64,000 nucleotides of DNA, taken from Sclerodactyla briareus. Its lineage: Eukaryota > Echinodermata > Holothuroidea > Dendrochirotida > Sclerodactylidae. Both the position numbers and the translations under genes were made by a program. Under the pieces are notes generated by a model that did no database searches, was not told the DNA's origin, and saw nothing but the letters and a program-made list of their open reading frames with translations. Positions 826-57,090 of the stretch are shown one piece after another. Within the stretch, counting starts at the first letter, position 1, and each line of letters starts with the position of its first letter. The stretch lies in NCBI GenBank assembly GCA_026419785.1, contig JAODTK010005749.1:186001-250000 (forward strand), in the 5' to 3' direction.

Positions 826-3077
826 AGGACGTCTGTGAGGGATCATGCCGGGGCCAAACAGAGCAGTAGGAGACGCTCGCTAACGTTCTCCCAGGGCTGG
901 CGGACACTCCCTGCTCCGCCCTGGAAACCCATGCGGAAAAACCGTGATGTATTGCCGCAAGGGCGGAGGGGAAGCCCGGATCTTCAGCCCCGCTTCCCCT
1001 GGTGGAAGAGGGCCAACACTAATGACATCGCAGGGCATACCAAGGCAACCACAGGGTCACAACCAAGGATGTTGCGACGTCCGCCAAACGCGGTCCCGAA
1101 ACACCGCTTGTTCGGAAGCATTGTTGGCTCGTCTCCCCGAAGAAAGAGACGCATGCGCGAGTGCGGTGGTACCACAGCTAACCCATCTGCCTGAGCCGGA
1201 AAGGGGGTCCTGGAGCAGAGGGTCTGAAGTCGCACTTTGTTGGCTGCCACAAAAAGATCAACGAACGGCCGTCGTTCGGGACCGTCACTTCGCGGGCCCC
1301 CTGCGCTGATCCGCCCAAAAGAGGCCATCACCCTAAGACGGTTCCTCACCCAAGAGCGACGTGTCTGTCATCACTGTCGCCCTGGGAAGGAAGTCGCGAA
1401 AGCGACTATACCACAGCCACCGTGTGGCTCTGTCTGCTGCCGCCCTATGTGACTCCGTCCCTCGGGACAGGAGGTGTCCCGAAATCTTCGGCGAAGAGGA
1501 CTCGTCTGCGGATCTAATTGGGAGACGCGGACCGGTCCAACAGATTGCGCCGCAGTGGACGCGCGCGCCGGCAGCACAGATCGATAATATCGATCATGGT
1601 AGCCGCCAAACCCAGGACCGAGTTTGGCCCTGGCCGGGGAATACTCGGAGGACAGGATGGACGCTGCAGCCGCGGCAACGTCCAAGACGCGTTGAGATTC
1701 ACGCGTATGAGCTATCGCCCCGCTTGGGTCGACGGGGCCACCCCAGCCAATCGGTGGGCGACGACTGTGATGCCCGCTCCATGCAACAATGAAAGCGAGG
1801 ATTGGCCTGCCGACCCAGTTAATGAGCTTGGGGCCGTCGAAGACCGAATGGAAGGGACCACAAGCAGGTATAGTCATGTCCCCTGTAGCCGAACGCTAGG
1901 AATCGGCAGTGAAGCGGCGGGTATCCCGGGGCAGGATACACGTCCTCAGGTCTTCAACGATGCCTCACCCCCGCTTGATGAGGATCGGGCCATAGGCTGT
2001 AGCAAGGTAGACGCCCATCAGGATTCCTTGGACGGCGGGCGACACCCTCCGCGGTGGTTCTTCCCCGAGAACCTAAGACTGCCTAAACGACCTCGCCTCG
2101 CCTATGCCTTCGGCCTCCCCTTCAGCTTACAGGTCGAGGTCGGCGGCGATAGCTGGAGGCCGGCCTCCTGCTGTTCTCGGCTGCCCGGCGGCATTGAAGC
2201 CGCCCGCAGAAAGGGTCTACGCCCAGGAGGGCAAGTCCGCACGAAGCAGCTTACATGGCCTCCGTAGGTTACGACACCGCCTCGAGGACGGTGTCCCGCC
2301 TAGCGCCCGTGGCTCCTTACGGGCCCTGGCGCTGGGCCCCTGGGCGATGGACTCGAAGTGGGTGAAAACCTCACCACGACCGGCCCCCAGGGGGTTGTCT
2401 ACCGGCCCCACAGGGTGGATGTCTACCCGCCCGGCATGAGGGATAGGCAGGACGGTCGGCGCAGTGGCTGCTCCCTTCGGGACGGCTCTTCGGAGCTCAG
2501 TCCCCATTAGAACGTGGCGACCGCTCATTCCGGAGTGTCATGGGAAGTCCGTGGCAAGGAGTCAACTCGTCCTCCTCGTCTGAGCGATTGATGACTGAAC
2601 TGACTTTCCCTCGGAGTTACCCGGTCAGTAATGCCCCTGCGCCGCCGCCACCCCCGCACTGGTGAGGACGCTGCACGGCACACCCTGCTCCGGGCTCTTT
2701 TACGGCCAGGCCCCAATCGAGCCTCCAGCCCCTTTGGAAAATTTTCAGGACCGTCGAGCCACATTATCGCGACGTTCGTTTCGGCAAATGCAGCTCGCTG
2801 GCGCTCCTCTTGCTAAAACCCCCAACGAGCCGTGGTCCCCTCCAGGTCCTGACCTCTGTGTTCGAAACCACCGTAGCCTCGGCTCCTAGTGGTTGATTTG
2901 GCTGGCTGAAGCCAACCGAGCGCCACGGTCGTCTCGAGATCTGACCTTCGAAGCTCCCTCGATGGACGGTCCGTTCTGCGCTTCTCGTGCGCCAGACCCC
3001 ACCCCACGTTGGCCCCTCTCGGAGCCCCTGGCTCCTGGGGGGGGGGAATAGGGACAATATCATTGGTTCGGCCGACC

Positions 3078-3140
3078 GGCGTAAGGAGCTCCACGTAACT
3101 CTTTGCATGGTCTCGTAGGGCTTCTCCACGGGGTTGGCAT
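3078..3140. repeat. Direct repeat, right copy
   Basis: This is the partner of 764-825, about 2.3 kb away inside the same GC-rich island. A one-base difference shifts the minus-strand frame relative to the left copy. Confidence 0.65.
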
Positions 3141-3639
3141 GGGCCTACCGGGGCCAATGGATCCGGCTCACGGTGGTTGGTTCCAGCCAGCTGAGGCCGA
3201 CCGGGTTTTGCCCTGCAGGCGCCCTAGGATCCGACCATTCTGTATGAAAAGCCAGCCTGGTGCTCCTCGTGCCCCAACCAGCTGCACGCACACTGGCTCT
3301 AGAAAAGGCGCCCGGGCCACAACCTTCTCTGGGGCTGCTGAGTCCTTCCACCGGCACGGTCTCCTGCTGTCAGGCCCCAACCGAGTCGTTGCCCCACTCG
3401 GAGACAGGGACCTTGGTGTCCGACCACCGGAGCGAGGGATCCCGGTGGTCCGTTCGGTTCAGCGAAGCCGCGCCGGGCGCACCACTGGCGCCCAGGTCCG
3501 ACCGTCAGGAGCCAACGATTAGTGACTGGTCTTTTCGGCGGGCTACCGCGGCGGCGCTCTGCTTGCCGCCTGGGTGATTCGGGACGCCCGCCCTAGCCGG
3601 GAGCCAGTTAAGAGGATCCCAGTTCCTTTCCCCTTGCCA

Positions 3640-6419: not shown

Positions 6420-7700
6420 TGAGAAGGCGTCCATACATAATTATTTTTCACATAAAAATGTTTCCCATCACTTCTGCTTTGGGTCCCCCCCCCAATTGTC
6501 TTGACCCCCCTACTTTTAGACAGGGAGCTGTCGCCTAATTGACTGCAAACTATACTATCTGTTGGGGAGGAAGATGTTCTTGTCTGCCGTCTACAGTACC
6601 GGTACCACTGTTTTGCATTTGTGGTGTTTTTTGCAGGATGTGTTCTCTCACGACACAATACTCCCAGTGCCAGGCATTTCCCCGCATGTGCAGTTATCGG
6701 GAGTACCCGACCCTATTCTACTGAAGCGCCCGATTGCAGGGATGCTACTCTGAGAAGTAAACATTGGCCCTCCACATTGTTCATTTAATTTTTCATTCTT
6801 TTTTTTTCTTGAAAAAGGTAAACAAAATGAAAACGTAAATGCCGGTTAAACCTAGGGGTAGGTGAGCTCGTCGGGGAACCTGGCCCCCCGTTGGGGTAAC
6901 TTCGTACCCTCGCGTCGGGGGCAATCCTGCTCCACTATTGACCTCCCGCAGTACGTCACAAGAGGTACTTTGTAAATTCTGTCTGAGAGTTTCATTCCCC
7001 ATGCAAAATAAAGTATCAAAGTCCTGACTTTTCACATAACCAATTGTAATATTTCTAAGATACGACAAGGGTGTTTTGGTTAATTATTGAATGAACCTAG
7101 CACTTTCCCGGCTTTTCTGCAACATTGCATCAGTTGTTTACAACTTTGGTTCGAAAATGAAAATCCATTTGAATTGTTGAGTTTCAGGACATAGTGTTTT
7201 ATACCTGCCTCTTGACCATTTTTTTCTTAAGTATTCATGCCTTTGACCCGATTTCACATAGGATACTCTGATAAATCTCCATGTCCCCAAACCAACCCTA
7301 AATGGGTACTAGGCTTATGTGGCATTATGCATTAATCTCTAACAATCTGACAAGCTATGAATGGCCAGCATCCACTCTAATATTTTTGGTCAGGGAAATA
7401 CAAATCTCCGTGAATAAAGCAAGCTGTCAGATCCTGTCCCTTGCATATTTTCTTCAGGTAACTAGCTGTTAACAAGAGAAGTTAACCAATTGAAGTGGGA
7501 TTTGGGCTATGTCCTCCTGCATTATGGCTGTTCCATGCAGCAATAGGCTGCAAATATTACCTTAGTTTCTTCTGAAATGATTGATTTGAATTCTATGGTT
7601 CAGGAAACCAGGTGAGGCTCATCAAGGGACCTCCGTCATATTACCATGGAGATCACCAACCAGCGTAACTTTCCTTCTCTTCTCGACTAAGTTCTCAGAT
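6420..7700. other. Anonymous region
   Basis: A mixed-composition stretch with C and G tracts (about 6486-6515) and a CG-richer patch at 6860-6940. No convincing gene, RNA or transposon end is seen. Confidence 0.4.
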
Positions 7701-7706
7701 TTATCG

Positions 7707-7795
7707 AGGCAAGGGAGTAACAACTCCGAACCTGCTCCCAGGACCACTATTTCATGTCTCCATCCGGAAAGACGATAAATGAACTTCAGGACCTA
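7707..7795 (+). repeat. Direct repeat, first copy, with MBD-like coding phrase
   Basis: About 88 bp, almost identical to 8079-8169, including 'aacctgctcccaggaccac' and 'ctccatccggaaagacgata'. This copy ends in 'ctaggatgcgaggcctacgt', wording that reappears at 14553. The duplication therefore copied part of a coding-like sequence. Confidence 0.85.
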
Positions 7796-8019
7796 GGATG
7801 CGAGGCCTACGTTTGGCCTACTGCTTTTTTAAATTTAGCATTCTTCTACTTTACATAGGCCTAGACCTAAGCATTGCAGACATTCCGGAAATAGGCATAT
7901 CTTTGTAAATAGCAATACTACCACAGGCTGCACAACCCAGTCACAAATTTTAATTTGTGCCTGTACCCACAGTGGCTGCCCAAACTAATGTAAGAACCAA
8001 CTCCGAGTCTACACTAATT

Positions 8020-8237
8020 TGCCTCCAGCAAGTTGGCACGGCGCATACTTGTATGCCCCAGACCTCAGATGATATCGAGGCAGGGGAGAGTAACAACTCC
8101 GAACCTGCTCCCAGGACCACTATTTCATGTCTCCATCCGGAAAGACGATAAATGAACTTCAGGACCTGACCACTTTCTTGGAACATGGAGGGGCAGAAGT
8201 TCAAGTTCAATGTGACTGCCTACAGGATGATGGATAA
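8020..8237 (+). pseudogene. Fragment resembling an MBD/TAM domain
   Basis: An open frame from 8094 to the stop at 8235-8237 encodes 47 residues with no start codon. It includes QDHYFMSPSGKTINELQD followed by LTTFLE. Tyr-Phe-x-Ser-Pro-x-Gly-Lys followed by Leu and Phe-Leu is the core pattern of methyl-CpG-binding (MBD/TAM) domains. Upstream, in the same frame but across in-frame stops (TGA near 8069, TAA at 8091), PPASWHGAY resembles the start of such a domain. A related stretch at 14601-14650 reads PPASWPAHIVC..GKS. A 'tttgcctccag' tract before it could be a splice acceptor. The real domain is usually about 70 residues; this one is broken and carries about nine extra codons before the Tyr-Phe core. 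Methylated-DNA binding is the family role; function here is unproven and the identification is tentative. Confidence 0.35.
8079..8169 (+). repeat. Direct repeat, second copy
   Basis: Partner of 7707-7795, offset by about 372 bp. Differences are mostly one- or two-base gaps ('gaggcaagggag' versus 'gaggcaggggagag'). Only this copy continues into the longer open frame ending at 8237. Confidence 0.85.
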
Positions 8238-8460
8238 GATTTATTGCAAATACCCGTAACAAACCCCAATATCCCCAGAAAGTTCACTGCACCACAGCGG
8301 AACCATGGAGTGAAGACCTTGCTCATCGCAACTGCAAGTAAAGCCACCCGGGGAAAAAATCTGGCTGGAATTTAAACTTGGAATATTTGCTTGCAAATCA
8401 TCACTATACACACTCTGCATTTGCTGCACTCGGGACAATAAAATGGCCGCCACATAATTA

Positions 8461-8980
8461 AAAAATCCAGGTTTATCAATTGATAAACCTGGATTATCGA
8501 CCGAAAAACCCGGTTTTATCGACGATAAACCTGGTTTATCGCCTGAAAATCCAAGTTTTTCGCCGATAAACCCAGTTTATCGGTCGATAAACAGGATTTT
8601 CCTGAAATCCTGGACTATCAACTAAAAAATCAACGTTTTCAAGTCGAAATACCATGTTTTACAGAAAATCCAAGTTGTTCGGTTGAGATAAACAGTTTAT
8701 CTCGATAATCCAGGTTTTTCGACTGAAAAACCTGGATTTCCGGTGATAAACCAGGTTTTTCGCCGAAAAACCAGGTTGATCGCAAGAAATACCTGGTTCA
8801 TCTCCGATAATCCATGTTTATCGCCGATAATCCAAGTTTTTCACTGTTAAACAGGGGTTAATCACGATCAAACGGGTTACGGCGATAAACCAGGTTTATC
8901 AGCGATAAACCAGTTTAGCGCGATAAACCGGATATCACAGATACACTCGGTTTATCGTAATAAACATGGTTTATCAGTAT
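8461..8980. repeat. Array of about 26 short palindromic units
   Basis: The unit is about 20 bp: GATAAACCAGGTTTATC plus a 3-4 bp spacer, often CGCC. Each unit is itself a dyad. Clear ones lie at 8480-8498, 8524-8541, 8563-8582, 8747-8763, 8823-8841, 8884-8900 and 8903-8918. Arms vary (GATAAACC, GAAAAACC, GATAATCC) but the two arms of one unit often vary together. The array begins abruptly after 'cataatta' and ends at the start of a dispersed repeat tail (8981-9165). No unique spacers, so it is not a CRISPR array. GATAA/TTATC are GATA-type half-sites, but binding is speculation. Confidence 0.9.
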
Positions 8981-9165
8981 AACAAGGCGATCGCCCCCGT
9001 GTCTCGCCTGGTTGCGCGACAGTTGTTCCATCTAATAGTCACCATGCAAACAGTTACAAGGAATTTAATGTGTTGCTTTAAGATTATGGTATAGCATTTA
9101 ACACCTTACTAATCAGTGATCAATTTCAATTCGTAAGGACTGATTATGGACAATGTCTACTAGGC
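8981..9165. repeat. Dispersed repeat tail, copy 1
   Basis: About 180 bp matching 28642-28828 through 'gcgatcg', 'ctcgcctggttgcgcg', 'ccatctaatagtcacc', 'ggtatagcatttaacacc' and 'cagtgatcaatt'. At the second locus the tail follows a different (~200 bp unit) array. The tail thus seems to be the fixed end of an element whose upstream array is variable. Confidence 0.8.
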
Positions 9166-41767: not shown

Positions 41768-41835
41768 GCCCACGAGACCGAAGGGTCAACGAGACCGACG
41801 GCCCACGAGACCGAACCGAAATTGAAAAGGTTGGG
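41768..41835 (+). repeat. 'cacgagaccgaa' minisatellite, patch 1
   Basis: Three to four units of 'cacgagaccgaagggt' and similar, ending in 'gaaattgaaaagg'. Same unit as at 42296, 46505 and, inverted, 56765. Confidence 0.8.
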
Positions 41836-46423: not shown

Positions 46424-46504
46424 GTGGGGGGGTGGGGACATTTAAGATTTGTCCCCCACCCATCGAATGTGGGGGGACTGTCCCCCCGTCCCCCCCCCCC
46501 CCCC
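46424..46504. repeat. G/C-tract hairpin beside minisatellite patch 3
   Basis: 'ggtggggaca' (46431-46440) pairs with 'tgtcccccacc' (46450-46460), followed by more G and C tracts and then 'gcgcccat'. Same layout, inverted, as 58334-58420. Confidence 0.6.
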
Positions 46505-46815
46505 GGATTGCGCCCATGGCACAGACCGAAGTCCGCAGACGAAATTTGAAAAAGGTCCCACGGACGAAGGTCCGCGAGACCGGAAGTGAGAAAGGGTCCG
46601 CGAGAACGAAATTGAGAAAGGGTCCGCGAGAACGAAATTGAAAGGTCCACGAGTACCGGAGGTTCCGCGAGACGAAAATTGGGGAAAGGGTCCACGAGAC
46701 CCGAATGTCGCGAAACCGAAATTCAAAAGGTCACGAGACCGAAGGTCCGCGAAGACTGAAAAATACAAGGGTCCCCGAGACCGAAGGTTCGCGAGACCGA
46801 ATATAAGAGAAATTC
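46505..46815 (+). repeat. 'ggtccgcgagaccgaa' minisatellite, patch 3
   Basis: About ten to twelve units alternating 'ggtccgcgagaccgaa' and 'ttgagaaag', giving a 26-30 bp higher unit. This is the longest plus-strand patch of the family. Confidence 0.9.
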
Positions 46816-56764: not shown

Positions 56765-57090
56765 TTTTCCGGTCTCGCGACCCTTCGGTCTCGCGGACCC
56801 TTTCGCACTTACTGGTCTCGCGGACCCCTTTCCACTTTCGGTCTCGCGGACCTCCCTTTCTCATTCGGTACGTGGACGCTTTTTAAGTTTCGGTTTCGCG
56901 GGACCCCTGTCTCACTTTCGGTCTCGTGGACCCTTTTGAAGTTATCGGTCTAGTGAACCTTCCCCACTTTCGGTTCTCGCGACCCTTTTGACACTTCGAT
57001 CGTCGGTCTCGTGGACATTCGGTCCTTCGTGGCCGTCGGTCTCGTGGGTCGTTGGTCTCGTGGACCTTCGGTCTCGTGGGCTCGGCCCCC
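56765..57090 (-). repeat. 'ggtctcgtggacc' minisatellite, patch 4 (inverted)
   Basis: Reverse complement of the units at 46505: about a dozen 'cggtctcgcggaccctt' and 'tttcactttcggtctcg' units. Confidence 0.9.

Follow-up and report, generated by a model that had tools for sequence, protein, structure and literature searches.

The palindromic array and its copies

The window, the whole stretch of Sclerodactyla briareus DNA that was analyzed (64,000 nucleotides), contains a tandem array of 26 palindromic units, each reading GATAAACC-W-GGTTTATC plus a spacer and the last followed by a stub at 8979 (Table 1). The units were placed by wraparound alignment to the template GATAAACC-W-GGTTTATC-N4, and their number agrees with the original prediction of about 26 palindromic units. 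Unit spacing is 18-22 bp, most often 20 bp (10 of 26) and then 21 bp (7 of 26). The arms pair in 79% of scorable cells, and two of the 26 units are perfect palindromes. Folded as single-stranded DNA, the block reaches -124.3 kcal/mol against a mean of -53.1 kcal/mol (z -15.4), better than 100 of 100 shuffles; this strong folding follows from the units being palindromic and is no proof that folding matters. Judged from sequence, the array forms the left subterminal part of an element whose ends are of the IS3EU type.

Table 1 Features of the window discussed in the text.
Feature	Position	Strand	Basis
High-copy interspersed repeat, two parts	7581-7793 and 8064-8416		
~271-bp piece of element interior	7794..8066	+	matches in the C2821, C761, C1816 and C2932 loci
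Possible degenerate terminal inverted repeat remnant (AAAATGGCCGCCACATAATTAA vs TATGGCAAGCAAATGCTCAATAATTCG), doubtful	8441..8462	+	read by eye
26-unit palindromic array	8463..8978	+	wraparound parse; Tandem Repeats Finder rows 8462-8592 and 8687-8977; homology to six dispersed in-register copies
Right limit of homology	8979..8986	+	alignments with C2821, C1816, C2932, C761 and C858 stop at 8982-8986
Second high-copy interspersed repeat	~9165 to beyond 10200		
Second array family, perhaps	41768-41814		
Second array family, minus cluster	46500-46805	-	
Second array family, plus cluster	56770-57080	+	

Across the 319-Mb genome there are 120 exact copies of the 17-mer unit GATAAACCNGGTTTATC and 0 of the pattern read backward. 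A genome search with the window array returned 233 matches, those listed falling on 34 contigs. Among the matches listed, six other loci carry all or most of the array in register at 78-84% identity: C2821 (84%), C1816 (82%), C2932 and C858 (80% each), C761 (79%) and C3102 (78% over positions 1-435 of the 536 in the query). Homology among the in-register copies begins ~25 bp ahead of the array, and the six loci rule out a purely local satellite. The original prediction had proposed looking for copies genome-wide and took their absence, together with single-arm changes as common as paired ones, as the sign of simple decay of one local tandem repeat: single-arm changes do dominate (see below), but other copies are many, so the array is not such a decayed local repeat.

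The window copy itself is an old, fragmentary and dead insertion that sits in repeat-rich DNA and currently serves no function of its own. The interior that comes after the array in other copies is missing past the right limit of homology, and the ~271-bp piece of element interior lies upstream of the array, whereas in other copies it lies downstream, inside the element. This piece is on the wrong side of the array, so the region holds either a rearranged copy or parts of two copies. The possible terminal repeat remnant was not called by an automatic end scan allowing up to 9 errors, and searches for RNA genes gave no Rfam or tRNA match across the window. On either side of the array lies a high-copy interspersed repeat. 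The upstream one seems to be interrupted by the 271-bp piece, ~100 bp being found on both sides.

Element ends, target duplications and classification

Intact relatives open with TATGGCAAGC...CAATAATTCGA, pass directly into the palindromic units and close with an inverted copy. The 18 ends listed read TATGGCAAGC(C)AAATGC(C/T)CAATAATTCGA or a close variant leading into the first half-site, the L056 end being degenerate at that half-site. The arrays start within the terminal repeat and have opposite orientation at the two ends: compared whole, C2821 and C761 are ~80% alike over 6.1-6.2 kb with an inverted array at each end, and both display the long inverted repeats made of tandem repeats that mark foldback-type elements. 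With up to 3 mismatches allowed, the end pattern has 22 + 27 matches in the genome versus 0 in a reversed control. The right end of C2821 was placed by eye and confirmed by string search; for several other placed ends the end match is weak (5-7 errors of 28-29).

Measured elements range from 172 bp to 8.1 kb and from 4 units (C219) to 98 (C2188), and several are array throughout. The shorter copies are mostly all array: C219 (172 bp), C1338 (584 bp), C2590 (644 bp), C1973 (861 bp), C2142 (934 bp), C2965 (1411 bp), C3114 (1544 bp) and C2188 (2035 bp). The 98 parsed units of C2188 make up ~190 inverted half-sites about one turn apart in 2.0 kb, with little or nothing else between its ends. C1816 has 8085 bp between its two ends, its middle partly read. 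Unit arrays are present in 13 of the 14 lone-end loci (those with an end-pattern match and no near partner among the matches listed), the exception being C2650. In three loci (L006 at ~2934-3240, L007 and L008) the element includes a SINE-like, tRNA-like stretch, GGGTTCGAGCC, which we take to be a B-box motif; just before it, C2821 and C761 are ~850-900 bp longer than C1816 and C2932.

Eight of the 21 elements with both outer ends placed are flanked by exact 6-bp duplications: CACGCG (C3114 and C2142), GGAGTC (C2965), GTCTCC (C1338), AACGGT (C2188), GGAGGC (C2611), ATCGTC (C2821) and GGCGCC (C2590). Exact flank matches in the same 21 elements number 0 at 4 bp, 1 at 5 bp, 1 at 7 bp and 0 at 8 bp, the last within the 8-10 bp duplication length of Mutator-type foldback elements. 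Flanks paired across different elements are exact at 6 bp in 2 of 420 cases, CACGCG being common to two elements. The duplications of C3102 and C1973 fit once shifted and C1816 matches at 5 of 6 positions. Counting against a transposon, the 6-bp flanks are inexact as placed in 13 of the 21 elements: the three just named and C2171, C761, C219, C3102b, C1870, C1968, C2527, C1687, C2056 and C3085. These counts omit C485, C1387, C2103, C2094, C1037b and C2650, whose outer end is missing, nested or ambiguous, and all one-ended loci. A rolling-circle (Helitron) left end had also been considered, and was dropped once the second inverted end and the 6-bp duplications appeared. Several target duplications have a central CG, and the insertion site of C2590 (L049) is itself palindromic (left AGGAGGCGCC, right GGCGCCTCCT).

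The ends and duplications resemble those of IS3EU (IS3EU/GingerRoot) elements, whose families are described, in the available portions of the sources, with TA..TA ends and usually 6-bp duplications (PMC10045372) and, in rust fungi, with TAYGG..CCRTA ends and terminal repeats >30 bp (PMC12730594). Most placed ends here read TATGGC..GCCATA; such termini together with 6-bp duplications have been published as the signature of IS3EU, under which we filed the family. No transposase turned up in the searches, so this membership stands on the termini and the filing is provisional. The elements differ from IS3EU in this respect and in their palindromic-unit arrays, of which those portions of the two sources make no mention; nor are such arrays described for IS3EU in the literature searched (titles and abstract openings, mostly outside subscription journals). 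In the oyster Crassostrea gigas, the satellites CgiSat35 and CgiSat47, with monomers given as 690 and 129, are labeled DNA/IS3EU in the part of the source available (PMC8268682), a likeness of label.

Candidate coding copies were rejected in turn. The interior of the 6-kb copy C2821 has no Pfam family over cut-off in the five of six frames scanned, which speaks against a gene there. For C2650, the lone-end locus lacking an array, all six frames were scanned over 4 kb and none matched Pfam at E 0.1, which speaks against an autonomous copy. PF24764, which we take to mark the IS3EU transposase, has five hits over cut-off in the genome (26.9-41.6 bits); within ~1.5 kb of them there is no array and no end repeat better than 9/29 errors, and they were discarded as the transposase of these elements. 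Neither a transposase nor an autonomous copy was found in the element interiors, lone-end loci or PF24764 loci searched.

Variation within and between units

According to the original prediction, many units carry matching changes on both arms, as if the dyad were maintained, and compensatory changes should be counted against single-arm ones. Neither of two tests supports this: single-arm changes prevail, and compensatory ones are at or below chance. Comparison of the seven in-register copies with their column majority covers 119 paired positions and 833 cells, of which 580 are unchanged, 171 single-arm, 11 double non-complementary, 5 compensatory and 66 gapped; shuffling gives a mean of 8.0 compensatory cells, and at least 5 in 94% of shuffles, and partners slid by 1-3 columns give 0-7. 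The window copy departs from the same majority by 22 single-arm and 0 compensatory changes. Within the window array, 193 cells include 40 single-arm, 3 compensatory (3.0 with shuffled arms) and 1 double non-complementary. When units are compared with units in 30 arrays, there are 1556 single, 109 double non-complementary and 97 compensatory changes versus a null of 127.7 +/- 8.8 compensatory; pairing across the spacer instead gives 90 against a null of 115.1. The counts within the window array and the 30 arrays, and the conservation profiles and counts below other than those based on the seven copies, exclude units that agree with the consensus at fewer than 11 of 17 positions, which leaves 969 of 1114 parsed units. 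The arrays of C1973 and C2188 do display a symmetric consensus change, GATAATCC/GGATTATC, which points towards paired change; such symmetry would also be expected from two-fold protein recognition or from exchange between arms. Also pointing that way, an arm in the C3114 type resembles the arm of the next unit above chance (32 vs 22.4; 2 of 500 shuffles), as is expected of 42-bp blocks.

The units do share a pattern of conservation: arm positions 1, 2, 4, 5 and 7 (GAnAAwC) are conserved and positions 3, 6 and 8 variable, mirrored in both arms (Table 2). Profile correlation between arms is 0.75-0.99 in six array groups and that among groups 0.55-0.98, and it is only the between-group agreement that counts as evidence, as positions 3, 6 and 8 were chosen after inspecting arrays of several groups. 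Conserved positions stand out most in C2188. The C1870 type is weakest, with position 7 poorly conserved and an agreement with other groups of 0.55-0.68, which counts against protein binding. Substitutions that arose after insertion are spread evenly (205/1676 at conserved and 130/990 at variable positions, P 0.51, where P values overstate as units descend from one another and are not independent), so mutation bias does not account for the conservation pattern of the units. The simplest reading of the GAnAAwC pattern would be that a binding protein constrains it; a founder pattern common to all subfamilies could mimic it.

Table 2 Deviations at conserved and variable arm positions.
Set	Conserved	Variable
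6-kb type	178/2277	327/1315
C485	127/2230	147/1323
C3114	87/1796	348/1059
C1870	160/1168	168/672
C2188	23/1267	266/760
Others	74/706	142/412
Window alone	15/254	36/147
Units of the seven-copy column majority	17/251	38/149

This pattern modifies the suggestion of densely set, paired GATA-like sites. Our best reading is close to paired sites, with GAnAAwC rather than GATA as the conserved core: averaged over arms, at most one of the eight positions is less conserved than position 3, the T of GATA, in each of the six groups (the C1870 type is exceptional in that position 8 is lower than position 3, and positions 3 and 7 are close). In 23 of 30 arrays no spacing is more frequent than 21 bp, under a 21-column parse that favors this value; the commonest spacing of 20 in the window array counts against phased sites. 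Many spacers read RRYY by eye, so the array is also symmetric about its spacers, with about one inverted half-site per 10.5-bp turn of the DNA helix. The GAnAAwC pattern fits putative protein half-sites placed about one per helical turn.

Possible origin and role of the arrays

With moderate confidence we interpret the array as the subterminal end of a non-autonomous cut-and-paste transposon with IS3EU-type termini, its units being putative protein sites. That this is a transposon end is argued by the inverted TATGGC..GCCATA ends, the 6-bp duplications and the inverted arrays that start in the terminal repeat. The array is probably a decayed end of this kind, made of two-fold symmetric sites that are candidate docking sites for a mobilizing protein. 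Each arm would be a half-site for the DNA-binding domain of a transposase or an element-encoded helper, each ~21-bp unit would bind a dimer, and units two helical turns apart would present their sites on one face of the helix. A long array could capture a scarce protein, help the two ends meet and let non-coding copies compete. Arrays would lengthen by unequal exchange or slippage, at times taking the terminal repeat into satellite-like blocks.

Replication slippage had been among the original suggestions, and slippage or unequal exchange probably does help the arrays grow; that the array is a transposon end had been missed. Copies of the end repeat recur within arrays: nine of the ten right-end copies in C1984 are consecutive, spaced 278-365 bp apart, and there are 4 copies of a 63-bp block with 97% identity. 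This locus (L070, C1984:270900-274260), with its nine right-end copies and 63-bp block, has the appearance of an element turning into satellite-like DNA. The C1984 blocks parallel the repeats of Tetris, which seeded satellite DNA according to the available part of its description (PMC4079207).

Other transposons are described with comparable ends, as far as the available portions of the sources extend. Galileo, a foldback element of the P superfamily, likewise has long terminal repeats of tandem repeats, with many sites for the transposase THAP domain, proposed to supply specificity (PMC3688188). The foldback element Tetris also has tandem-repeat ends and likewise lacks a found autonomous copy, but it has 8-10 bp duplications and TIR-220 repeats in place of 6 bp and ~21-bp palindromic units (PMC4079207). 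CACTA/Spm-En elements share repeated subterminal motifs: those of Spm are read by TNPA, and soybean Tgmt* has 24 repeats in 732 bp, able to form 12 palindromes; they differ in their CACTA ends, the 3-bp duplication of Tgmt* and the motif sequence (PMC2613891). Near the end of piggyBac lies a 19-bp palindrome held by two domains of a transposase dimer, with different ends and no long array in the portion of the source available (PMC11707139). By analogy, a dimer would bind the unit here and the array would form a multivalent end. In piggyBat, additional subterminal sites can be inhibitory (PMC11707139), which we count against a helpful array.

More tentatively, the element may be reduced to its own putative binding code, with site-only copies such as C2188 serving as a track or sponge coated end to end by transposase dimers; copies would then compete by site number, and arrays would expand in an arms race and later collapse into satellite DNA. 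It is somewhat unlikely that the units are functionless, a palindrome near a transposon end having grown by slippage or unequal exchange and simply ridden along. The spread of unit number from 4 to 98 and the terminal-repeat and 63-bp blocks of C1984 are what such passive amplification would give, but the mirrored, position-specific variation in six groups beside even post-insertion substitution, and the arrays in 13 of 14 lone-end loci, argue for the transposon end with protein sites.

We consider it highly improbable that the units owe their retention to folding, each as a hairpin or cruciform in DNA or RNA that is itself recognized or cut: single-strand folding is strong and C1973 and C2188 share a symmetric change, but compensatory changes fall below their shuffled or null means in both the seven copies and the 30 arrays, and the most variable positions, 3, 6 and 8, change unpaired. 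Still less credence goes to sites for a host factor, GATA-type or another, with the arrays acting as host regulatory or heterochromatin platforms. Many units do have GATAA strings, but few arm positions are less conserved than the T of GATA, and the first half-site belongs to the terminal repeat, a better fit to transposase recognition.

If the transposon-end interpretation is right, elements with IS3EU termini join the transposons ended by long arrays of repeated sites. Their version would be unusually clean: 4 to 98 copies of a module that has two-fold symmetry and spans about two helical turns. The contrast of constrained unit variation with even post-insertion decay would offer a way to read the recognition code of a lost protein from dead copies, and steps from transposon end towards satellite DNA would be visible.

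Arrays of another family, with GGTCTCGCGGACC as their imperfect palindrome, are also present in the window (Table 1). Its sequence TTCGGTCTCGCGGACC has 40 + 49 exact matches in the genome versus 0 in a reversed control, and no inverted pair of at least 10 bases was found at the units themselves. A minus cluster with a plus cluster 2-11 kb after it is present on 12 contigs, so the minus and plus clusters of the window may together represent a single 10.5-kb element whose terminal arrays are inverted.
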